Source: a virus
IMG/VR virus record: IMGVR_UViG_3300013006_000072
Span: 1-36,255 of that record
DNA length: 36,255 bases
Strand: one strand, 5' to 3'
The position numbers were made by a program, and so were the translations under genes. Below the pieces are notes generated by a model. That model saw only the letters and a program-made list of their open reading frames with translations, was not told where the DNA came from and searched no databases. Below, piece after piece: positions 14,821-24,026 of this stretch (within the stretch, counting starts at the first letter, position 1; every line of letters begins with the position of its first letter).

Positions 14821-14835
14821 TGCTTCGTCCTCTGG

Positions 14836-15147
14836 TTATAAGGCTTTATAACTAAACACAATCGAATCCAGCACCTCGCGCAGTGGCTCGATGCCATCCT
14901 CATTCACTACGAATGCTTCACCTCCTGCTTTCTCAATCTGCTCTAAGTTCTTTTCCTGCAATGCCGTGGGCCTGTTCGACCCTGCCTTGCACTCGATACC
15001 CACGAACCTACCCTGCAAGCACACCAGAAAATCTGGTGCACCCTGCCGACCGAACCCGCCTGTCACGGGCATAACGTAGTACGCGCCAAGCTCTTCAAGA
15101 ACTTTGCGTACCTTGGCTTTCACTTTGGCTTCCGGAGTCATTGCCAT
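14836..15147 (-). CDS. VRR-NUC nuclease
   Basis: This 103-aa stand-alone VRR-NUC domain belongs to the PD-(D/E)XK superfamily. It has APDFLVC (D39), GIECKAG (E52, K54) and TALQEKNL (Q64) in the right order. Such short phage enzymes probably resolve or trim DNA structures. The ATG at 15147 has GAGGTG 8 nt upstream. The gene therefore overlaps the upstream ORF by 53 nt, which is unusually long for this operon. Confidence 0.85.
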   Translation of the reverse strand: MAMTPEAKVKAKVRKVLEELGAYYVMPVTGGFGRQGAPDFLVCLQGRFVGIECKAGSNRPTALQEKNLEQIEKAGGEAFVVNEDGIEPLREVLDSIVFSYKAL

Positions 15148-16325: not shown

Positions 16326-16345
16326 GGTTATGAATGTTCATAACC
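16326..16345. repeat. Dyad site A (GTTATGAA-N2-TTCATAAC)
   Basis: A perfect 9-bp dyad with a TG centre lies between the stop of the 336-aa gene and the ribosome site of the 312-aa gene. It is one of eight such sites between 16.3 and 23.5 kb. It could be an operator or an RNA stem with an AUGU loop. Confidence 0.8.
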
Positions 16346-16360
16346 AGAAACAAAAACAAA

Positions 16361-17371
16361 TCAATACATACGCTTGGCATACAGGTCTGCCGCTTTGTAC
16401 ATAGTCTTGAGATACAGGGCACGTACGTGGCGAGCTTGCGCAACCGTCTCGGGTAACTCAAGCACCGTTTTGTACGTGATATCCATAAGGATGTTGTCAT
16501 CAGAAAAGTTGCTTGTGGGCACGCGCCGGTAAAGGTGCAGAGCCTTGGCAAACATCACCGCGAGATCAACTCTATTTAAGTGTTGAGTGTCTAGTATAAC
16601 AGATCTAACTTTCTGTGTCAAATCATGTGAAAGGTTACCTAAATCTACGTAATAGTGTTTAGGGTTAGGGTGTTTACCCCATAGGCGTGGGGTGAAGTTA
16701 GCCACATGCCGATCAAATGCGCGTTCGGGTACATCACCAAGCACGGGTAGCACCACGCACATGTAATCGTAGAACTCGTTGATCGCTTGCTTGTACTGCT
16801 TGACAAGATCTTTATCCAGAACAGTGAGGCGCATTTCCACTGGTTTGCCCGCACGTCGCCACGCACCGCCCCGCGACGGAGAACTACTATCGGTGGCAAT
16901 CAGCCGCTCGAACCAAAGACACGTCGGGTCAAAGTAATCGGCGGCGGCAAAGTACGGCTTGGGTCGAGGCAGGTAAAACTCTTTATCGTCGACCTCGATG
17001 AACGTGTCACCGCCGCTCCGCTTGGTCAGCCGCATGTCGGCGGGTAGCAGGTTGATCAGGAACTTCTCACGCGCTACGGGATTAACACCTTCTGGTGCGC
17101 TACGGATACGGATTAACTCGTGCACCCCGTCGCGTTGCCATAGGATCGGCGCGTTACGGAATGCCATCGTGTCGGGCGGGTACACGATAGCGGACGGGAT
17201 CAGCCCGTCGAGCATGAGGTAGCGGTTCTCGTCGACACGGGCTATGCGATCCATAAACCTGTTACGGGGACCGACCGGTCGCACGTTCATCTCGGCAGTG
17301 TTGCGCCCACCGTTAAGTGGTCTGACGCGCTTGTACAGCGCGGCGGCTTGGTCAAACGAATTAATAGTCAT
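16361..17371 (-). CDS. Hypothetical protein of the MoxR/VWA neighbourhood
   Basis: This 336-aa protein reads as a soluble mixed alpha/beta protein. Features are an N-terminal helix with basic residues (FDQAAALYKRVRPL), aromatic beta segments (about 120-165: FIEVDDKEFYLPRPKPYF) and a helical C-terminal half. The ATG at 17371 has GAGGTG upstream, and that sequence is also the 3' end of the previous gene. The gene carries a consensus-strength leftward promoter (16593-16621) and a copy of the AACTACTATC element. No family was recognised. Confidence 0.6.
   Translation of the reverse strand: MTINSFDQAAALYKRVRPLNGGRNTAEMNVRPVGPRNRFMDRIARVDENRYLMLDGLIPSAIVYPPDTMAFRNAPILWQRDGVHELIRIRSAPEGVNPVAREKFLINLLPADMRLTKRSGGDTFIEVDDKEFYLPRPKPYFAAADYFDPTCLWFERLIATDSSSPSRGGAWRRAGKPVEMRLTVLDKDLVKQYKQAINEFYDYMCVVLPVLGDVPERAFDRHVANFTPRLWGKHPNPKHYYVDLGNLSHDLTQKVRSVILDTQHLNRVDLAVMFAKALHLYRRVPTSNFSDDNILMDITYKTVLELPETVAQARHVRALYLKTMYKAADLYAKRMY
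16593..16621 (-). promoter_or_regulatory. Consensus sigma-70 promoter inside a coding region
   Basis: On the minus strand TTGACA (16621-16616), a 17-nt spacer and TATACT (16598-16593) match the bacterial sigma-70 consensus at 11 of 12 positions. It lies in the 3' part of the 336-aa gene and points towards the genes from 16304 downward. It uses the same hexamers and spacing as the main promoter at 21503-21531. Confidence 0.75.
16866..16891 (+). repeat. Dispersed GC-rich/AACTACTATC element, copy 2
   Basis: CCGCCCCGCG leads to AACTACTATC (16882-16891), inside the 336-aa gene. Fifteen bases, AACTACTATCGGTGG, are identical to copy 1 although the host genes read them in different frames. Confidence 0.5.
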
Positions 17372-17372
17372 C

Positions 17373-17558
17373 TCACACCTCTACAGTTTCTTGTTGCACT
17401 TCGATCAGATAACCCAATCGGCGAATGCCGTCGAGCGTTGCGCTCGTCAGGGTCGAGTGTCCTGCGATCTGCGCAAATATCTTGGCCTTGTCGCAGACCG
17501 GATACACGGTCTTGTTGCCATAGATATTGCGCACGCGTACTACGATCTTTAGATCCAT
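17373..17558 (-). CDS. 61-aa hypothetical protein
   Basis: The ATG at 17558 follows TTTTGAGGTGTGAG, the standard leader of this block. A TTG four codons up is part of that ribosome site. The protein is basic and beta-rich at the N-terminus (LKIVVRVRNIYGNKTVYPV), then has a helix and the segment TLDGIRRLGYLIEV. The latter could be a small helix-turn unit. No family was recognised. Its stop lies 1 nt from the next start, so the two are coupled. Confidence 0.6.
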   Translation of the reverse strand: MDLKIVVRVRNIYGNKTVYPVCDKAKIFAQIAGHSTLTSATLDGIRRLGYLIEVQQETVEV

Positions 17559-17598
17559 CTCACACCTCAAAAGAAAAAACCGGATGCGGAATGCACCC

Positions 17599-17617
17599 GG
17601 TTATGAATGTTCATAAC
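17599..17617. repeat. Dyad site B (GTTATGAA-N2-TTCATAAC)
   Basis: GTTATGAA (17600-17607) and TTCATAAC (17610-17617) have a TG centre. The site sits between the VWA gene stop and the ribosome site of the 61-aa gene. Confidence 0.8.
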
Positions 17618-17621
17618 TAGC

Positions 17622-18905
17622 TCAGATCTCTACGTGCACAGTGGTCCCGTTCGGCGCAGTGCGTGACGCGTTGTCGATGATGCACCAGAGAACCGGCACG
17701 GTCCACGTACCCCAGTCGCTACCGAGGTAGCCGTCGGTCAGCACGATAACGGCTTGTGGTGAGATGCCTTGCCTAGACATGTAATCGGACACGCACGACA
17801 CCCGAGTGCCACCGCCACCGACCGGCTTGGTCGAGTGAATGATGTTCGGGATCTGATCGTCGGCGTACACCTCATCACCGCATACCTCAGTGTCCCAGTA
17901 CAGGATGCGCACGGCGGCGGGCTTGACCGACTCGCAGATACCTGCGATCTCACCCATGATCTGCGGCAACATCGATACAGTCGAACCGGACATATCGGCG
18001 GCAATCACCAGCTCGTCGACCTTCTCGCTGACGCCCGAGGGCAGATAGATACCTGCACCCCAATACCTGCGGTTTGGTCGTGCCCACGTCGAGTAGTCAC
18101 TGCCCGTGCATGTCGTGGTAACAAACTCACGCAACACCTCGCGCCAGTCGACCTTGCTATCTAACACGTCATCGAGCATACGGTTACCGCCCGAGCCGGT
18201 CTTACCTGCAAGTAGCGCACCTTGCTGAGCGGCTTCCTGCACGGCACGCTCTAAGTTCTTTTTCTGCTCGTCGGTCAGCTTGCCCGCGCCTGCCCAATCG
18301 TGTTTATCCAACGGCTTGCCCGGACCCTGCCCGGGTTGCGGCTGACCTTGCCCCGGTTGTGGCTGACCCTGACCTTGCCCGGGTTGTGGCTGACCTTGCC
18401 CCTGACCTTGCCCGTTCTTGGGCTGACCCTGCTTCTGCTTGTACAAAGCTTTGAACACCTGCGGCACGGTCATGTTGCGGTACTGCTCGTCGTACAGACC
18501 ACCCTTGGGCATGGTGATGAACCCGGGCTGAGTGCCCTTGTCATGGTCGACCAGTCGCATGTTGATAACGTAGTCGCACGCGGCGTTAGCGCAGTCAGCG
18601 TCGAGCTTCCACAGATCGGCGTAAGTAGTCAGGTGCAGGTAAAGAATGTGCCACGTCTCATGGCAGATGGTGAAGCGCAGGTCGGCATCACTGATGCCAT
18701 CGATAAACTTGTCAGAGTACATAGCCGTGACACCGTTAGTCGCGGCGGTCTCGATACCGTCGGTCCCGTTCGGCACGACAGTGTGTTTAGCCATGAGCAC
18801 CAGACCCGTGATAGGCGTGTAGTGCGGAGACCCAATTATTGCCCCGACAGCTTTGGTAAGACGCTGAGCGGCGGTGAGTTCGGCTTGTCTTGCGATCATC
18901 AACAT
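17622..18905 (-). CDS. HExxH metallopeptidase-like + VWA domain protein (DUF2201 type)
   Basis: This 427-aa protein has an N-terminal putative metallopeptidase domain with HETWH (82-86). A Gln/Gly/Pro-repeat linker (about 158-197) follows. The C-terminal von Willebrand A domain carries a complete MIDAS: DMSGS (D304, S306, S308), T367 after GGGG, and D391 in LTDG. This is the DUF2201_N/DUF2201 plan. VWA proteins of this type work with MoxR AAA+ ATPases as co-chaperones or metal-insertion machines, and the MoxR partner is the next gene upstream. Target and role in the phage are unknown. The ATG at 18905 follows TTTTGAGGTG. All catalytic and MIDAS residues look intact. Confidence 0.85.
   Translation of the reverse strand: MLMIARQAELTAAQRLTKAVGAIIGSPHYTPITGLVLMAKHTVVPNGTDGIETAATNGVTAMYSDKFIDGISDADLRFTICHETWHILYLHLTTYADLWKLDADCANAACDYVINMRLVDHDKGTQPGFITMPKGGLYDEQYRNMTVPQVFKALYKQKQGQPKNGQGQGQGQPQPGQGQGQPQPGQGQPQPGQGPGKPLDKHDWAGAGKLTDEQKKNLERAVQEAAQQGALLAGKTGSGGNRMLDDVLDSKVDWREVLREFVTTTCTGSDYSTWARPNRRYWGAGIYLPSGVSEKVDELVIAADMSGSTVSMLPQIMGEIAGICESVKPAAVRILYWDTEVCGDEVYADDQIPNIIHSTKPVGGGGTRVSCVSDYMSRQGISPQAVIVLTDGYLGSDWGTWTVPVLWCIIDNASRTAPNGTTVHVEI
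18300..18435 (-). repeat. Degenerate tandem repeat coding the Gln/Gly/Pro linker
   Basis: Imperfect repeats of a unit coding roughly GQPQPGQGQ run through this part of the VWA gene. The DNA repeats (blocks of CCGGGTTG, GGCTGACC and TTGCC) are close enough to allow length change by slippage. Confidence 0.7.
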
Positions 18906-18926
18906 GTGAACACCTCAAAAGATAGA

Positions 18927-18952
18927 GCCGGTTATGAACATTCATAACCGGC
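18927..18952. repeat. Dyad site C, longest arms
   Basis: The arms GCCGGTTATGAA (18927-18938) and TTCATAACCGGC (18941-18952) pair over 12 bp with a CA centre. The site lies between the MoxR stop and the VWA ribosome site. Confidence 0.85.
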
Positions 18953-18963
18953 GGAAGAAAAGA

Positions 18964-20058
18964 TTACTTGTCTGCACCGAATGCGAAGTTATTAGCGAGA
19001 CACCACGCACGGGCTTTGGCGTTGTTCAACACCACCGTGCGCTTGGCGTAGTCCTCGCGCTTGCACTGCATCATGAATAAGAGCTGAGCTTCCATGTCGA
19101 GCCGGGACATGTAGTCCATCCACTGATCAACCCACTCGCGCGAGATGGTTGCGAGCGTGCGATGCACGACCATGCACGTAGCCGCATCGGTCGACGGGAC
19201 CTTAGCCGTGAACGGGTCGGTCTTGATCGAGTCGGGCGTGGGCATATCCTGCGCAGTGTCGTAAAAGGTAACAAGTTCACCAGCGGCTTTCGGTCCGATA
19301 CAGCCGATGAGCGCGGCCATGAGCATGCGGCGGGGCTTGCCCGTATACAGCCAGCGCGAAGCGGCTTCGAGTGAGCGCAGGGTAACGAATGACACGCGGG
19401 ACTTGTCGCCCGGGTGCATGATGTACTGATTGTCGGCAGGGTTCTGCACGTCCTCGAATGACGCAAACCATTCCGGTTTTTCGTTGACGCACGCAATCAT
19501 CGCAGGGTGAATGCCCGCGTTGTACGCATACTCGGTGATCCACTCGGTGTTGATTGCACCGCGCATACGGGTGATCGTGATGCGGTTACGGTGATGACCC
19601 AATAACAAGTCACCGAGACCCTCGGACCCGAGATTAGTCGTCGCGAACACCATCGAGTCAGGGTGCAGGGTGTACGACCCAAGCTTGCGCTCCAACAGCA
19701 GACGCATCATGCCGTTCTTGACGGCAGGATTAGCTTTACCGAATTCATCCACCATCAAAATCAGCGGCTTGTTGAGGTGGATACCCAACTCTTCGTTAGG
19801 CACGTAACGCACGCAAGTAGAGTCACCGTCGAGAGTGTGCAACTGAGGGATAGTGATATCCCCGAGGTCCTTGGTCGTACAGTCGAAGTAGCACGCGGTA
19901 TGCGTCGGGTGACGCTTGGCGAGCATCTTCAGGATTGAACTCTTGCCGATACCCATGCGACCTTGGATGAGCATCGTGTTCTCGCGGCACGACTCGATCA
20001 TCTCGGCGCACTCGTTGATGGACAGATCGTAGAGAGAGTTAGTAGCGGAAGCAGACAT
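18964..20058 (-). CDS. MoxR-type AAA+ ATPase
   Basis: The protein is 364 aa from the ATG at 20058, preceded by TTTTGAGGTGTTCC; 10 upstream codons are leader. Walker A is GRMGIGKSS (33-41, K39), Walker B is LILMVDEF (D104, E105) and sensor 1 is VFATTN (N142). The order matches MoxR/CobS-like AAA+ proteins, which form rings and remodel or activate partners through VWA proteins. The downstream gene encodes such a VWA protein and the upstream gene a DUF3150-like protein, so the three probably form one complex. Membership in the MoxR group is strongly suggested. The substrate cannot be read from the sequence. Confidence 0.85.
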   Translation of the reverse strand: MSASATNSLYDLSINECAEMIESCRENTMLIQGRMGIGKSSILKMLAKRHPTHTACYFDCTTKDLGDITIPQLHTLDGDSTCVRYVPNEELGIHLNKPLILMVDEFGKANPAVKNGMMRLLLERKLGSYTLHPDSMVFATTNLGSEGLGDLLLGHHRNRITITRMRGAINTEWITEYAYNAGIHPAMIACVNEKPEWFASFEDVQNPADNQYIMHPGDKSRVSFVTLRSLEAASRWLYTGKPRRMLMAALIGCIGPKAAGELVTFYDTAQDMPTPDSIKTDPFTAKVPSTDAATCMVVHRTLATISREWVDQWMDYMSRLDMEAQLLFMMQCKREDYAKRTVVLNNAKARAWCLANNFAFGADK

Positions 20059-20095
20059 GGAACACCTCAAAAGAAAAGATAGAAACAAAAGGGAT

Positions 20096-20119
20096 CGGGT
20101 TATGAATGTTCATAACCCG
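20096..20119. repeat. Dyad site D (GTTATGAA-N2-TTCATAAC)
   Basis: The arms CGGGTTATGAA (20096-20106) and TTCATAACCCG (20109-20119) have a TG centre. The site lies between the DUF3150-like stop and the MoxR ribosome site. Confidence 0.85.
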
Positions 20120-20137
20120 GAGAGAACAAACTAACAA

Positions 20138-20153
20138 CAGAACACACAGTATA
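20138..20153 (-). promoter_or_regulatory. Copy of the early-promoter -10/start region
   Basis: Sixteen bases (minus strand TATACTGTGTGTTCTG) are identical to the -10 and start region of the main promoter at 21493-21508. No good -35 box stands 16-18 nt upstream. It may be a secondary promoter for the MoxR gene or a duplicated fragment. Confidence 0.4.
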
Positions 20154-20182
20154 TCAAAGAACAACAACAAAACCTAATAAAG

Positions 20183-21106
20183 CTACCAGCTTAAAGAAGA
20201 GAGAATCGCGTCGACCTTCTGCTTAGTGTCACGGCGCAAGTGGTCGTCCTCACGCAGTGCATCAGGGGACACGCCGTCGAGCGCGGCTTCGAGACCGTCA
20301 CGCATGGACGCCATACGGTGGTCGCCTTCGACGTTGAATGCGTCGAGCAGTTCGAGCAGGTCGCGCAAGTTATAGACCAAGCTGTCGCGGAACACCTTTT
20401 TATCTTTAGCGTCACCGCCCACGTAGTCGAGCCGCTCGCTCATCTTGGACATGGCGTCGTACGTGCGTTGCCACACCTCGCGCATCGTCGCGTCGAGACG
20501 TGAGTTGTACGTATTGGCGAAGCTCTCAGCAAGAATCCTGTTGTGCTCGTTCACCATGTCGAGTTGCCAGTGCCCTGCAACGGGCATCGGCTGTTGTGAG
20601 TGACCGAATGCGAACTTACTGCGCAAGGTGTCGACCGACGGATAGTCGGAGTCACGGTACAGGGAACCCAGCTTGGCACGGGCTTCGGTCTGCGCCCATG
20701 AGTACGCGGACAGGAACGCTTCTTTGAGCGTGTCGAATTCGATATGGTGACCGGTGATGCCTTCGTAGTAGATCGGGAACCGAGCAGTCGGAAGCGCACG
20801 CTGACCGAGGTCGCCCCAAAGGCTTGTCTGCTCGTAGTGCCAGTTGCGCACGTTCGCGGCGTGCTTCTGGATTGCAACCAGTTCGGCGCAGTCACCGAGC
20901 AACTTCTTATGGAATGCACCGACGTTGGCGTCGGCGTTGTTGGCAACGGTCACCTCGCGGGTTGCCTGTTTGTCGAGCTTGCGACCGGTCCACACCGAGA
21001 TGTTGAGTTCGGCGATCACCAGCGATTGGTGAAACACGTTATGCGCGGCTTCTTGGTTAGCCGTGAGTGATGCAGAGATGGGGGCGATAGACATGTGAGC
21101 AAACAT
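20183..21106 (-). CDS. DUF3150-like protein
   Basis: The protein is 307 aa from the ATG at 21106, with GAGG 6 nt upstream. It is largely alpha-helical with the early segment ELNISVWTGRKLDKQATREV, the central FPIYYEGITGHHIEFDTLKE and the repeated helical text of the DUF3150 family. DUF3150 genes commonly sit beside MoxR/VWA genes in phages, as here. Biochemical function is unknown; it is probably a partner or substrate adaptor of the AAA+/VWA machine. The family call rests on recall of pattern and on context. Confidence 0.65.
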   Translation of the reverse strand: MFAHMSIAPISASLTANQEAAHNVFHQSLVIAELNISVWTGRKLDKQATREVTVANNADANVGAFHKKLLGDCAELVAIQKHAANVRNWHYEQTSLWGDLGQRALPTARFPIYYEGITGHHIEFDTLKEAFLSAYSWAQTEARAKLGSLYRDSDYPSVDTLRSKFAFGHSQQPMPVAGHWQLDMVNEHNRILAESFANTYNSRLDATMREVWQRTYDAMSKMSERLDYVGGDAKDKKVFRDSLVYNLRDLLELLDAFNVEGDHRMASMRDGLEAALDGVSPDALREDDHLRRDTKQKVDAILSSLSW

Positions 21107-21141
21107 AGTGAACCTCAAAAAGTAGAAAGAAAAAGAAACGA

Positions 21142-21169
21142 GTTATGAACAGAGCGACCGGTTCATAAC
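21142..21169. repeat. Dyad site E, wide form (20-bp register)
   Basis: GTTATGAA (21142-21149) and TTCATAAC (21162-21169) are separated by 12 nt. Half-site starts are exactly 20 bp apart instead of 10. An overlapping palindrome, GACCGGTT/AACCGGTC, surrounds the right half. The site lies between the 71-aa gene stop and the DUF3150-like start. Confidence 0.75.
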
Positions 21170-21172
21170 CGG

Positions 21173-21388
21173 TCAGTAGTACATGCGCTGGATGCGCAGG
21201 ATGGTCAGGAGTCGGTCTCGAAAGCTCGGCTTGTATTTGCGAAGTAAACTTGACTGCAACCGTTCCATATCCCACGACACAACCCTGCATGAAGCAGGGC
21301 ATGGCCGTATGTAACGAATGCCGATCAGGGTCGGACCCCAATCTTTTTGGACGACAGTCGTGCCGTCGTCGCGCTTGATCAGTGGCAT
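21173..21388 (-). CDS. 71-aa basic protein, first gene of the leftward operon
   Basis: The ATG at 21388 follows a strong AGGAGGTG ribosome site. The protein is basic, with an N-terminal part (MPLIKRDDGTTVVQKDWGPT), two Cys in the middle and a basic C-terminal helix (RDRLLTILRIQRMYY). No family was recognised. Its place just downstream of the strong promoter and a dyad makes it a candidate early takeover or regulatory protein. Confidence 0.65.
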   Translation of the reverse strand: MPLIKRDDGTTVVQKDWGPTLIGIRYIRPCPASCRVVSWDMERLQSSLLRKYKPSFRDRLLTILRIQRMYY

Positions 21389-21434
21389 AAATGCACCTCC
21401 TGAAAGGAACCGACAGAGCCGGTCCCGGGTTCCA

Positions 21435-21452
21435 GTTATGAATGTTCATAAC
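21435..21452. repeat. Dyad site F (GTTATGAA-N2-TTCATAAC)
   Basis: GTTATGAA (21435-21442) and TTCATAAC (21445-21452) have a TG centre. The site lies about 50 nt downstream of the main promoter's -10 box and ahead of the 71-aa gene. It would be in the transcript leader. Confidence 0.8.
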
Positions 21453-21502
21453 CGTCTGATAGATAAACACAGAACACTACTTAATTAACCACCAGAACAC
21501 AC

Positions 21503-21531
21503 AGTATAACACCATATGGGGGGTTTGTCAA
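21503..21531 (-). promoter_or_regulatory. Main leftward early promoter (sigma-70 consensus)
   Basis: On the minus strand TTGACA (21531-21526), a 17-nt spacer and TATACT (21508-21503) match the consensus at 11 of 12 positions. It is 115 nt ahead of the first leftward gene. The 8-bp array begins 15 bp upstream of the -35 box, an ideal place for a regulator. Confidence 0.85.
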
Positions 21532-21545
21532 GTTATTCTGTAGGG

Positions 21546-21609
21546 GTGTTCGGTCTACGGAATGTTCGAGTGTTCGGGATTGATAGTGTTCTAGTGTTCG
21601 GAGTGTACG
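21546..21609 (+). repeat. 8-bp-period array 1 (GTGTTCGG-type octamers)
   Basis: Reading from 21546 in steps of 8, the octamers are GTGTTCGG, TCTACGGA, ATGTTCGA, GTGTTCGG, GATTGATA, GTGTTCTA, GTGTTCGG and AGTGTACG. Five match RTGTTCKR and all are in register. Such arrays bind ribbon-helix-helix regulators or initiators. Confidence 0.7.
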
Positions 21610-21726
21610 TAAAAGTACCGTTCTTTTGCTTTTTTTACGGATACCGCTTTCGGACGTAGGAACGATGTAGGTGAAAACGCGTTTTTGCAGACCGTATACG
21701 GGTCGTCAATACGGCAGTGTGTCCAA

Positions 21727-21851
21727 TGTAGCCAATGTTCGGGGGCTAAAATCGCTGTAGGAAAGAAAAATCACGTGGCTAACATAATATGGTGTGTTTG
21801 AAAAGTGATTTTCTGGCTATCCACCCTTTTTTTGACCGAACATTGGCTACA
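21727..21851. repeat. Perfect 16-bp inverted repeat around AT-rich DNA
   Basis: TGTAGCCAATGTTCGG (21727-21742) is exactly complementary to CCGAACATTGGCTACA (21836-21851), with 93 bp between. Each arm contains the TGTTCGG core of the arrays. A related TGTTGGCTACA...GGCCGAACA lies at 21979-22000. Confidence 0.8.
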
Positions 21852-21859
21852 CATACTTC

Positions 21860-21919
21860 TAGATACTTTTAGATACCTTTTACTCTTATTTGATACATAG
21901 ATTTAGATACTTTTAGATA
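21860..21919 (+). repeat. AT-rich 16-bp direct repeats
   Basis: TAGATACTTTTAGATA occurs at 21860-21875 and again at 21904-21919, with GATAC units between. The segment is low-melting, as expected for an unwinding element. Confidence 0.75.
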
Positions 21920-22061
21920 GCCCTTGCATTGTGCTGATACCCGTTGCAATCGTTTGCTTCCGTACCTTTTGTTCCTGCATGTTGGCTACATGGCCGAACA
22001 GTAAACACACCAAAACAGCAGGATTCTGTGTTTGGACAGAACGGTCGATTTACCGTACGAC

Positions 22062-22093
22062 CGAACAATGGAACAACCGAACAATCGAACAGT
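22062..22093 (-). repeat. 8-bp-period array 2 (CGAACA, inverted relative to array 1)
   Basis: CGAACA, GGAACA, CGAACA and CGAACA start at 22062, 22070, 22078 and 22086, exactly 8 bp apart. This is the reverse complement of the TGTTCG core of array 1, so the two arrays face each other across about 450 bp. Confidence 0.75.
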
Positions 22094-22097
22094 CAAA

Positions 22098-22127
22098 CCC
22101 GCCCCGCCGCTCATGGAAACTACTATC
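22098..22127 (+). repeat. Dispersed GC-rich/AACTACTATC element, copy 3
   Basis: CCCGCCCCGCCGCTCATGGA leads to AACTACTATC (22118-22127). It lies in non-coding DNA directly after array 2. Confidence 0.6.
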
Positions 22128-22134
22128 TTTTTGG

Positions 22135-22162
22135 GTTATGAACAGCCCGACCCGTTCATAAC
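22135..22162. repeat. Dyad site G, wide form (20-bp register)
   Basis: GTTATGAA (22135-22142) and TTCATAAC (22155-22162) are separated by 12 nt, giving half-site starts 20 bp apart, as in site E. Confidence 0.75.
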
Positions 22163-22210
22163 CAGCCACGCCGCGCCACTCTGGCCGGTGCAAAACACGT
22201 CCTCGTGCGA

Positions 22211-22240
22211 CCCGCCACGCCACTCACTGGAACTACTATC
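22211..22240 (+). repeat. Dispersed GC-rich/AACTACTATC element, copy 4
   Basis: CCCGCCACGCCACTCACTGG leads to AACTACTATC (22231-22240). It is non-coding and closest to copy 3, 113 bp away. Confidence 0.6.
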
Positions 22241-22267
22241 AAATGCCCGGGCCAAAAACGCGGGCAC

Positions 22268-22298
22268 AAAAAAACCCCGCAGACCGAAATCTGCGGGG
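22268..22298 (-). terminator. Intrinsic terminator after the 76-aa gene
   Basis: CCCCGCAGA (22275-22283) and TCTGCGGGG (22290-22298) form a 9-bp stem with a 6-nt loop. Seven A precede it on the plus strand, giving a U run on the leftward RNA. It isolates the 22.3-23.3 kb genes from the main leftward operon. Confidence 0.9.
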
Positions 22299-22316
22299 CT
22301 GAGCGGAGCGGGTTGG

Positions 22317-22547
22317 TTAGTTGGGTTCGATGCCAAGAGGGGACGGGACCGAATATTCGACCCAGAGCGGCATGCCGGTATCGTGATCGATATCGTCGGA
22401 GTGTTCGACCCAGAATGCTACGTCATTCGCGACTAGCGTATTGATCCAATCCGTCATGCGCCTACGGCTCTGAGGTTCGCGAAACTCGAAACTCTGTACC
22501 ATAACTTGCCCAAAAAACCGATGAGAAACGAAAGTGTATTTTTTCAT
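22317..22547 (-). CDS. 76-aa hypothetical protein
   Basis: The ATG at 22547 begins MKKYTFVSHRFFGQVMVQSF. The protein is a mixed alpha/beta sequence with RMTDWINTLVANDVAFWVEH in the middle and an acidic D/E stretch. It has only a weak ribosome site (GGATGCACC). A strong terminator follows the stop, which supports a real transcript. No family was recognised. It may be a small regulator of the adjacent control region, but no DNA-binding motif is plain. Confidence 0.6.
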   Translation of the reverse strand: MKKYTFVSHRFFGQVMVQSFEFREPQSRRRMTDWINTLVANDVAFWVEHSDDIDHDTGMPLWVEYSVPSPLGIEPN

Positions 22548-22559
22548 GGTGCATCCGGC

Positions 22560-22575
22560 CCCCGGTTTCCCGGGG
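22560..22575 (-). repeat. GC hairpin with GAAA loop
   Basis: CCCCGG and CCGGGG form a 6-bp stem whose loop on the leftward RNA is GAAA, a stable tetraloop. No U run follows. It lies between the Ala-rich gene and the 76-aa gene and could slow read-through or protect the RNA. Confidence 0.5.
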
Positions 22576-22591
22576 TCCGTCCTATGGTTGG

Positions 22592-23299
22592 TTATACAGC
22601 GTTAGGGAAACGGCCGAGGATGGCCTCGATATCCTGCTTGGCCTTGACCAAATCAACGGCCGTCCCATCCTCCTGAACAACTCCGGTCATGTTGCTGACA
22701 TATCGGGCCGCATCCGTGAGGGCCTTCCGAAACTGCTTGAGGGCCTTGGCCTCGGCCTCGGCCTTGGCGGCGGCGGCCTTCTCGGCCTTGATCTCGGCCT
22801 CAGTCTTTACGACTGCGGTCCCGGCCGCGATTGCCGCCTCAAGTTCGGCCTTGGCAAGGGCCTCGGCCTTGGCCTCGGCCTCAGCCGTTTCGAGGGCCGC
22901 TAAGTACTTTTCGATCAGCCGAAAATTACCCCCGAACGAACCCCGTATGACCTTGACGCGTTTTTTCTGGTCGTCGGTCAAGGTTGCCGGATCGGCCTTG
23001 AGGTGCGCACGCTCGGCCTCATTGGGCCACGATTCGACCATACCGTCGCGCAACGTATCCCGATTGGCCTTGCCAACCAGTGACTGGTCAATGTGCGCGA
23101 CACGCCAACTAGCCTCATAGAGCACCTTAGTCAGCGACTGCCACTTACCCTGTGCGGCCTCCTCGGCCTTGGCCTTGGCATCCTCCTTGCGCAACGCCTC
23201 GCCCATGATCTTGTGGAAACCAGTCGGGAGGGCCTTGGCCATCGCGGCCGTATGGTTGGTCGCGATGGCCTGTTGAGTCATCTGCTCAATTGCGTTCAT
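22592..23299 (-). CDS. Ala/Glu/Lys-rich coiled-coil protein with GGCC-rich gene
   Basis: The protein is 235 aa from the ATG at 23299, with GAGGTAAG upstream. The N-terminal part (1-130) is helical with SLTKVLYEASWRVAHIDQSL and RVKVIRGSFGGNFRLIEKYL. Residues about 135-195 are a long helix of AEAKAEA-type repeats. The end reads KQFRKALTDAARYVSNM, then IEAILGRFPNAV. No family was recognised. The gene uses GCC for most Ala codons and holds about 30 GGCC tetramers, unlike its neighbours, which suggests separate origin. It is driven by the promoter at 23356-23384. A structural or scaffold-like coiled coil, or a DNA-bridging role, are both possible. Confidence 0.65.
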   Translation of the reverse strand: MNAIEQMTQQAIATNHTAAMAKALPTGFHKIMGEALRKEDAKAKAEEAAQGKWQSLTKVLYEASWRVAHIDQSLVGKANRDTLRDGMVESWPNEAERAHLKADPATLTDDQKKRVKVIRGSFGGNFRLIEKYLAALETAEAEAKAEALAKAELEAAIAAGTAVVKTEAEIKAEKAAAAKAEAEAKALKQFRKALTDAARYVSNMTGVVQEDGTAVDLVKAKQDIEAILGRFPNAV

Positions 23300-23355
23300 C
23301 TCACTTACCTCACGTGAGGCCGGTATCGACTGACACCACAAAACCCCACAACCAA

Positions 23356-23384
23356 ATAATACCCCAACTATCAATCAGTGTCAA
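23356..23384 (-). promoter_or_regulatory. Leftward sigma-70 promoter for the Ala-rich gene
   Basis: On the minus strand TTGACA (23384-23379), a 17-nt spacer and TATTAT (23361-23356) match the consensus at 11 of 12 positions. A second TTGACA lies 11 bp upstream within TTGACACGTG. The start codon is about 57 nt downstream. Confidence 0.8.
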
Positions 23385-23426
23385 CACGTGTCAAAACAAA
23401 CCAACCAGTGACACGTTCGGGGGCCG

Positions 23427-23454
23427 GTTATGAACGATTCGGGCCTTTCATAAC
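23427..23454. repeat. Dyad site H, wide form (20-bp register)
   Basis: GTTATGAA (23427-23434) and TTCATAAC (23447-23454) are separated by 12 nt. The site lies 43 bp upstream of the 23384 promoter -35 box and 34 bp from the first DnaA box. Confidence 0.75.
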
Positions 23455-23487: not shown

Positions 23488-23561
23488 TGTGGATAGCTTG
23501 TGGATAACCCGATTTTCGGGGCCGATTGTGGGTTGGGGGTTGTGGATAACCCTGTGGATAA
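23488..23561 (-). promoter_or_regulatory. Cluster of four DnaA boxes (candidate origin)
   Basis: On the minus strand TTATCCACA occurs at 23499-23507, 23541-23549 and 23553-23561, each a perfect consensus DnaA box. A near copy (CTATCCACA) is at 23488-23496. All have the same orientation. The cluster may load host DnaA for phage replication, titrate DnaA, or control transcription. Confidence 0.75.
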
Positions 23562-23764
23562 CTAAACCCGAAAACGCCTAGAATCGACGATCGGGAGCCG
23601 GTCAATACCTGAGCACGTGTTTACACGTGAGGCGCATAGGGGCCGTTTTAGAGGGGTTTTCAGAGGATAGGGTTTACCCTAATTTGAGGTTGGTTGGCCC
23701 CGGGCCTTGGCCCCTGAAATGTCGGGGGACCATGCTACATTATAGAACGATTATTAGGGGCCAA

Positions 23765-23836
23765 CCAGCCTTGGATCGTTACAGCGTATGGTACGACCAG
23801 CCAGCCTTGGATCGTTACAGCGTATGGTACGACCAG
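23765..23836 (+). repeat. Perfect 36-bp tandem duplication
   Basis: The unit running from CCAGCCTTGG to ACGACCAG occupies 23765-23800 and is repeated exactly at 23801-23836. Each copy includes GTATGGTAC, and TATGGT recurs at 24051. It is about 260 nt ahead of the late genes and could be a regulatory duplication or a recent replication slip. Confidence 0.85.
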
Positions 23837-24026
23837 CGGCCCGAGCGATTCCGCGCCCCAGCGACCCCACCGCACCCCCGCCCCCCACTTGGGCTGATGG
23901 GTCCCATGCGCTCTCTTACTTGCTATTCCGCTCAAATGATCTCCTATTTTTTCATTTTGGCTACATTAGACCCCCACCCCCCTCAATATAGGAAAGGCCC
24001 CCCCTTATGTTTTGGTTCCATACCCC

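Follow-up and report, generated by a model that had tools for sequence, protein, structure and literature searches.

The window analysed here, the complete 36,255-bp IMG/VR virus record IMGVR_UViG_3300013006_000072, carries a leftward early operon with genes for a MoxR-like AAA ATPase and a VWA-like protein, and a short inverted repeat recurs in the gaps between its early genes. The half-site GTTATGAA is present in 16 copies in the window, against 0.95 expected by chance and a maximum of 4 in dinucleotide-preserving shuffles, and these copies form exactly eight convergent dyads, with arms separated by 2 nt in five and by 12 nt in three. The protein that binds these dyads is probably the product of FG, the first gene of the same operon, as judged from comparison with related phages. 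The whole analysis was computed from sequence; the contigs compared are partial, and gene calls and promoter matches are approximate.

A sequence-only reading of the window had described the eight pairs, and they are real (16 half-sites against about one expected); five of its start coordinates are exact, and three, 16326, 18927 and 20096, are off by 1–4 bases (Table 1). Its observations that the half-sites lie 10 or 20 bp apart in all eight dyads, and that each longer gap of the 16.3–21.5 kb operon holds one dyad, were borne out. Not all eight lie just ahead of a ribosome site, as had been thought: the dyad at 22135 is in a non-coding stretch and is not directly followed by a gene, and that at 23427 is upstream of a sigma70-like promoter. 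A dedicated regulon for the MoxR/VWA block also proved too narrow a description, because the sites span the early block from its first gene, past the MoxR and VWA genes, to at least 14.8 kb. The site at 14.8 kb, a ninth one that the sequence-only reading had overlooked, is of the type seen in relatives, GTTATAAGGCTTTATAAC, and is probably an unswitched relic.

Table 1. Dyads, genes and regulatory features of the window
Feature	Coordinates	Strand	Remarks
Dyad	16327..16344	.	half-sites 10 bp apart (gap 2)
Dyad	17600..17617	.	half-sites 10 bp apart (gap 2)
Dyad	18931..18948	.	10 bp apart (gap 2); ahead of DUF2201 (VWA-like) gene; centre oriented opposite to neighbours
Dyad	20099..20116	.	10 bp apart (gap 2); ahead of AAA ATPase gene
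Dyad	21435..21452	.	10 bp apart (gap 2); ~50 bp downstream of promoter -10 box
Dyad	21142..21169	.	20 bp apart (gap 12); between 71-aa and 311-aa genes
Dyad	22135..22162	.	20 bp apart (gap 12); non-coding DNA, after terminator-like hairpin, between direct-repeat copies
Dyad	23427..23454	.	20 bp apart (gap 12); upstream of sigma70-like FG promoter
Ninth site, relatives' type	14835..14852		overlaps 3' end of preceding gene; 0 expected; aligned with homologous site of relative G002
FG, first gene of leftward early operon	22592..23299	-	235 aa from ATG 23299; 260 aa from upstream TTG 23374
FG promoter, sigma70-like, TTGACA-17-TATTAT	23356..23384	-	11/12 consensus match; consensus match only
Sigma70-like promoter, TTGACA-17-TATACT, TG-extended	21503..21531	-	11/12 consensus match
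Terminator-like hairpin and T run	22273..22300	-	
311-aa early protein, conserved in family	20183..21118	-	no Pfam or PHROG match
MoxR-like AAA ATPase	18964..20088	-	phrog_1297, E 1.3e-43
DUF2201 metallopeptidase/VWA-like protein	17622..18905	-	PF13203, E 4e-29; PF09967, E 3e-12

The same early block is present in three contigs whose MoxR and VWA proteins are 81–97% identical to those of the window. These close relatives contain 0 dyads of the GTTATGAA type; each has its own set of 7 or 8 dyads, built as GTTATAA-4-TTATAAC, so that a half-site reading GTTATGA in the window reads GTTATAA at every half-site of the relatives, and the flanks of six window sites align clearly with a homologous relative dyad. 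Based on these alignments, the window differs from its relatives at base 6 in all of its half-sites, which have changed in concert, and three window sites are also one helical turn longer. A search for the exact window dyad across IMG/VR returned 7 contigs with a single site each, which is about chance level, and the window dyad sequence is thus not shared beyond the window genome. The sequence-only reading had made its proposal depend on conservation of both the dyads and their spacing in related phages. The positions are kept, but the sequence is not, having changed in concert, and the 10/20-bp spacing is not found generally: all other genomes together gave 646 exact pairs at the mode of their own genome, 31 at +/-1, 2 at +2 and one at +10, whereas in the window five pairs are modal and three stand at +10. 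The 10/20-bp same-face geometry is therefore true of the window genome and essentially particular to it, not a general property. One extra helical turn fits a protein lying on one face of the DNA; the model of the window FG has a long helical hairpin that the shorter FG versions of the relatives lack, and we speculate that this hairpin is linked to the 20-bp sites.

To place the window dyads in their family, a related set of 245 phage stretches was drawn from searches with the VWA, MoxR and TerL proteins, and 799 dyads were catalogued in 95 non-redundant records. Nearly all informative stretches bear a dyad family, mostly with one consensus per genome, and the dyad sequence is private to almost every phage; the consensus half-sites include GTTAGTG, GTTAGTC, GTTAGGG, GTTAGGC, TGTAGTG, TGTAGTC, GGTAGTC, GTTATAC, TTTAGGG and TTCGGGC. 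There are about 7–16 copies per genome, concentrated in the early block in long records; 69% are intergenic against 16% expected (799 sites in 95 records, with crude gene calls), and the median distance from dyad to ribosome site, where one was recognised, is 12 nt. The cultured relatives HTVC023P, DSL-LC04 and CRP-902, which share structural genes only, showed no dyad family other than low-complexity runs, and no description of this system was found in the open-access literature. Seven records with TerL at about 53–55% identity (L205, L206, L209, L210, L221, L224 and L238) carry repeated dyads of other sequence (CGTATTA, CCTGACA, GTTACAA, CGTGTCT, TCTGACA, TGTACAA and TACTGTC), and FG was not found in them with a hidden Markov model (HMM); the dyad system may thus be wider than the FG-bearing group, with other binders. 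Everted-looking dyads with a central TAAC/GTTA, such as CGCATAACGTTATGCG, are present in L259, L264, L285 and L023, and may represent the same half-site arranged the other way round.

The sequence-only reading had looked for the binder among the helix-turn-helix (HTH) proteins of the window; the best candidate is FG, which has no recognisable HTH family match. An iterated HMM search detected the FG family in 118 of the 245 related stretches. The structural model of a typical member is all-helical (mean predicted local distance difference test score, pLDDT, 94), as is that of the window FG (pLDDT 91.5). Comparison with Pfam, PHROG and PDB sequences gave no convincing match and no family assignment, and among the members there was one weak HTH_Cmi2_C match and no Pfam HTH match that recurred. 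With Foldseek, the best hit in PDB had an E of 4.9, which is not a confident match, and the fold may have been overlooked by Foldseek; the best hit in BFVD (E 0.08) was an unnamed uncultured-phage protein. VIA, which re-scored Foldseek's own list only, gave a best Z of 5.4 over 44 residues; sigma region 4 overlapped weakly in structure (Z 4.4, 63 residues), below the chance level for helical proteins. A search of phage records with a single member as query found no relatives. FG appears to be an undescribed protein family.

The correspondence between FG and the dyads was measured in 57 genomes, reduced to 80% FG identity, using an alignment made blind to the dyads. Column 318 of FG shares 1.13 bits of mutual information with half-site base 7 and is the single outstanding column: G at base 7 goes with Asp or Glu in 25 of 29 genomes (Fisher p 7e-10), C with Lys or Arg in 19 of 23 (p 2.5e-10), and A with neither. 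At the preceding column, 317, Lys or Arg is accompanied by G at base 6 in 10/17 genomes versus 1/40 otherwise (p 4e-6), and the window follows this pattern, having R at column 317 with GTTATGA where its relatives have A with GTTATAA. Both columns are located in the long helix of FG, and an Asp facing the C opposite G, or a Lys or Arg facing G, is ordinary major-groove chemistry. Since relatedness inflates the score of every protein and makes shuffle z-scores misleading, the evolution of base 7 was simulated along two trees, one of the core genes and one of FG with the helix left out; 1.13 bits was reached in 0/2000 simulations on each tree, and by the best of 168 columns in 0/400. Of the G/C pairs that are phylogenetically independent, ten in number, six show the expected exchange of Asp for Lys/Arg and none the reverse (one-sided sign probability 1/64). 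For comparison, the best-by-z columns of the MoxR, VWA, 311-aa, TerS, TerL and 336-aa proteins hold 0.26–0.92 bits for base 7. Prediction of the dyads of left-out genomes agreed for G018 and L024 and disagreed for L083, which carries the same exceptional FG helix as G012; the remaining cases were uninformative.

Two pairs of nearly identical genomes have exchanged FG. The core proteins of L303 and L313 are 96–100% identical and their FG proteins 19%, with half-sites GTTAGGG and GGTAGTC respectively; in L279 and L305 the values are 91–100% and 23%. On either side of the exchanged FG the paired genomes keep about 97% DNA identity over kilobases, and the flanks of the dyads are largely 91–98% identical; within the 12 kb shared by the swap pairs, the main stretch that fails to align is FG. 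Homologous places carry GTTAGGGAATTCCCTAAC in one genome and GGTAGTCCGNGGACTACC in the other, with flanks that in several cases match up to the dyad. L305, which has the newer FG type, contains five GGTAGTCC sites, four of them perfect and one nearly so, together with a single site that matches the GTTAGTGC site of L279 exactly and two hybrid sites, GTTAGTGCCGCACTACC and GGTAGTGCCGGCACTACC. L305 thus appears to be a genome caught halfway through rewriting, and the simplest reading would be that FG was replaced first and that the sites then follow singly; which state is ancestral and which is new in this pair we infer from the mixed state itself.

We consider it likely that the dyads are double-stranded DNA operators for FG, and that the most likely effect of FG is to silence the early operon, in the main through a block of elongation. 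The sites, their conserved positions, the concerted change, the covariation, the swaps and the mixed genome can be read from the genomes themselves, and with these in hand we infer direct binding, dimerisation, repression and a roadblock mechanism. Two FG subunits would each read one half-site with their long helix, one residue setting base 7 and the residue before it base 6. FG would be made first, would bind its own leader and the gaps between the early genes, and would most likely repress the early operon, mainly through a stoperator-like block of the elongating RNA polymerase; when FG is replaced or drifts, the sites would be rewritten one by one to match. A block of elongation is favoured because most sites lie without an adjacent promoter. 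Most dyads have no promoter match nearby; -10 boxes cluster 40–80 bp upstream of dyads (74 versus about 5 expected in two bins), which places those dyads approximately 35–75 bp inside the transcript, and in the bins over the dyad itself -10 boxes are near background, so that promoter cores seldom overlap a dyad. The dyad of an FG leader often precedes the promoter, and the promoter stands between dyad and gene in 20/62.

However, it should be noted that several observations weigh against this interpretation. The usual position of the FG-leader dyads, upstream of the promoter, would also suit activation. The covariation has exceptions, namely R with G in G012, D and E with C in L251 and L320, respectively, and several neutral residues. 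FG was not found by HMM in some dyad-bearing records, and other or more divergent dyad binders therefore exist. Finally, the swap pairs are contigs that cover part of the genome, so that another gene could have been swapped elsewhere.

A positive action of dyad-bound FG, whether as activator or as an antitermination or processivity factor picked up by RNA polymerase as it crosses the early operon, would account for the upstream position of most FG-leader dyads and for the -10 boxes found about 60–80 bp downstream of these dyads. The dyad of L279 at 12798 would fit as well: it directly follows a strong GC hairpin with a T run, at about 12 nt, and is succeeded by a ribosome site, with hardly any room for a promoter and none obvious for the gene behind. 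Most dyads, however, have no promoter at an activating distance, and the promoters that exist are mostly upstream of the dyad; we regard positive action as unlikely, though worth keeping in mind beside repression by FG.

That the true binder is some other phage gene, exchanged along with FG, seems to us improbable. The records are partial, the swap pairs can be compared within their shared contigs but not in the early regions beyond, and further early proteins of the window have diverged from those of its relatives (a 316-aa protein, 56%, and a 294-aa protein with a weak HTH_7 match, 67%). Nevertheless, it is FG that forms the main unaligned block in the swap pairs, its top column survives the phylogenetic simulation and has residue/base pairings that make chemical sense, and the other proteins tested carry less information on base 7. 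A role of the dyads as marks for replication, segregation, protection or packaging, and not as transcriptional operators, is likewise doubtful. Such marks would not require promoters, and two window sites could be read in this way, since 22135 is in a non-coding repeat region and 23427 stands beside three copies of TTATCCACA; yet the dyads are found mainly in the early block and before genes, and marks for packaging or segregation need not precede each gene.

The sequence-only reading had offered, beside a DNA-binding protein, an RNA-stem role drawn from flank symmetry. Hairpins formed by the dyads in the transcript could serve as translational operators, processing sites or attenuators. Ribosome sites are near, two window sites have flank pairing, and several window dyads score as terminator-like. 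Over the 799 sites, however, arm mismatches are G.U in 18 cases and A.C in 21, so that G.U is not preferred, and every class of mismatch is symmetric between the strands; pairing between the flanks does not exceed the within-genome expectation and is rather below it, and the flank-extended hairpin apparent at two window sites is gone. Dyad centres are found in both orientations at homologous positions, with constant arms and varying centres, and some sites lie outside the transcripts predicted from promoter positions. The absence of a G.U excess, the symmetric mismatches, the non-complementary flanks, the flipped centres and the constant arms favour dyads that would act as double-stranded DNA, and an action as hairpins is very improbable. 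A sequence-specific protein reading both halves of the DNA, in turn, gains support from the concerted change, the strand-symmetric mismatches and the amino-acid/base covariation. Lastly, short mobile palindromes of the REP/MITE type, copied by a phage or host enzyme, would explain the many copies per genome and the flanks sometimes identical right up to the dyad, but are scarcely credible given that homologous places are occupied in relatives, that the L305 hybrids are base-by-base changes inside existing sites and not insertions, and that the aligned swaps show no target-site duplications.

Several other features of the window are of note. Both PHROG 1314 and many phage entries of GenBank label the DUF2201/VWA-like protein (17622–18905) an HNH endonuclease, which is probably a misannotation, since Pfam shows metallopeptidase-like and VWA-like domains. 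The three TTATCCACA copies, perfect DnaA-box-like sequences, lie within 63 bp at 23499–23561, where 0.22 are expected per window, and possibly form a replication origin. Around the dyad at 22135, between 21860 and 22240, a direct repeat beginning GATAGTAGTT is present on both sides together with repeated GTATCTAAAAGTATCTA units; this arrangement is iteron-like, and the repeats are retained in relatives. A tandem 36-bp repeat (23761–23837; 2.1 copies, 97% match) separates the divergent early and late operons. The structural genes are nearest to those of Pelagibacter phage HTVC023P (TerL 46%), and the AAA/VWA pair has distant relatives (about 27–30%) in many cultured phages, including Acinetobacter phage Presley.

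In lambdoid phages, residues of the repressor's recognition helix fix the bases of the half-site, and repressor and operators change together; these systems have few operators, located at promoters, an HTH fold and lysogeny. The residue-base correspondence and the joint change would be like those proposed here; the few promoter operators, the HTH fold and the lysogeny are unlike. Early promoters of phage N4 contain small hairpins. The MoxR/VWA pair is shared distantly with N4-like phages (Schitoviridae), but the structural genes here are nearest HTVC023P and the hairpin properties are not those of these dyads; a single-subunit (T7-like) RNA polymerase was not matched by PF00940, which matched no control genome either.

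Cluster A mycobacteriophages (L5, Bxb1; the TipsytheTRex repressor) have many phage-specific repressor sites, mostly in short promoterless intergenic gaps, with a consensus that differs between related phages along with the repressor, and these stoperators block transcription elongation (PMC6550527, PMC9283540). The dyads resemble them in being numerous, phage-specific and mostly intergenic without a promoter. Dissimilar from the dyads, Cluster A sites are asymmetric, 13 bp long, oriented with transcription and spread genome-wide at 20–30 per genome; the dyads are 16–19-bp palindromes (28 bp at three window sites) with no orientation preference, fewer in number and concentrated in the early block. 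The Cluster A repressor is a monomer with two DNA-binding domains (an N-terminal HTH and the Stoperator domain), to which the all-helical FG appears unrelated. Cluster A phages are temperate, and their motif distance tracks genome distance, whereas here no integrase was found and swaps are abrupt between near-identical genomes. In Cluster K mycobacteriophages, some of the genes have SAS/ESAS repeats ahead of their start codons, ESAS being imperfect 17-bp inverted repeats with variable spacers and a consensus that differs between subclusters, with no protein named (PMC3203893). The SAS core is an asymmetric 13-mer that overlaps the ribosome site and is shared across the cluster, unlike the dyads, which stand a median of 12 nt ahead; the consensus differences of ESAS may deserve the same covariation test.

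Neither integrase (PF00589) nor ParA (PF13614) was matched in 15 records, several of them 60–68 kb, although records may be incomplete; no relatives were found among bacteria and archaea when 84,980 species were searched, each represented by one genome, and plasmids contained only distant AAA proteins. A prophage or plasmid origin is thus unsupported, and these uncultured phages look virulent (purely lytic), as far as metagenomic records allow this to be judged.

It has long been asked how a regulator can gain a new specificity if many scattered sites have to change along with it, and these phages provide natural replicates of the process: several independent switches, two swap pairs in near-identical backgrounds and one mixed genome. 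The correspondence of FG residues to half-site bases also yields direct predictions that are testable by gel shift. The repeated replacement of specificity between near-identical phages suggests, as a hypothesis, selection for being different, for example to escape the FG of a co-infecting relative. A more speculative reading, which we consider less likely than not, is that these virulent phages have an immunity-like specificity without lysogeny, in which FG would silence the early genes of co-infecting or superinfecting phages with matching dyads, rare specificities would win, and FG would repeatedly be replaced and some ten operators rewritten site by site. If so, many mutually blind operator types would exist among otherwise near-identical phages, and if competition during co-infection drives the change, immunity-like specificity groups would occur in phages without detectable lysogeny.

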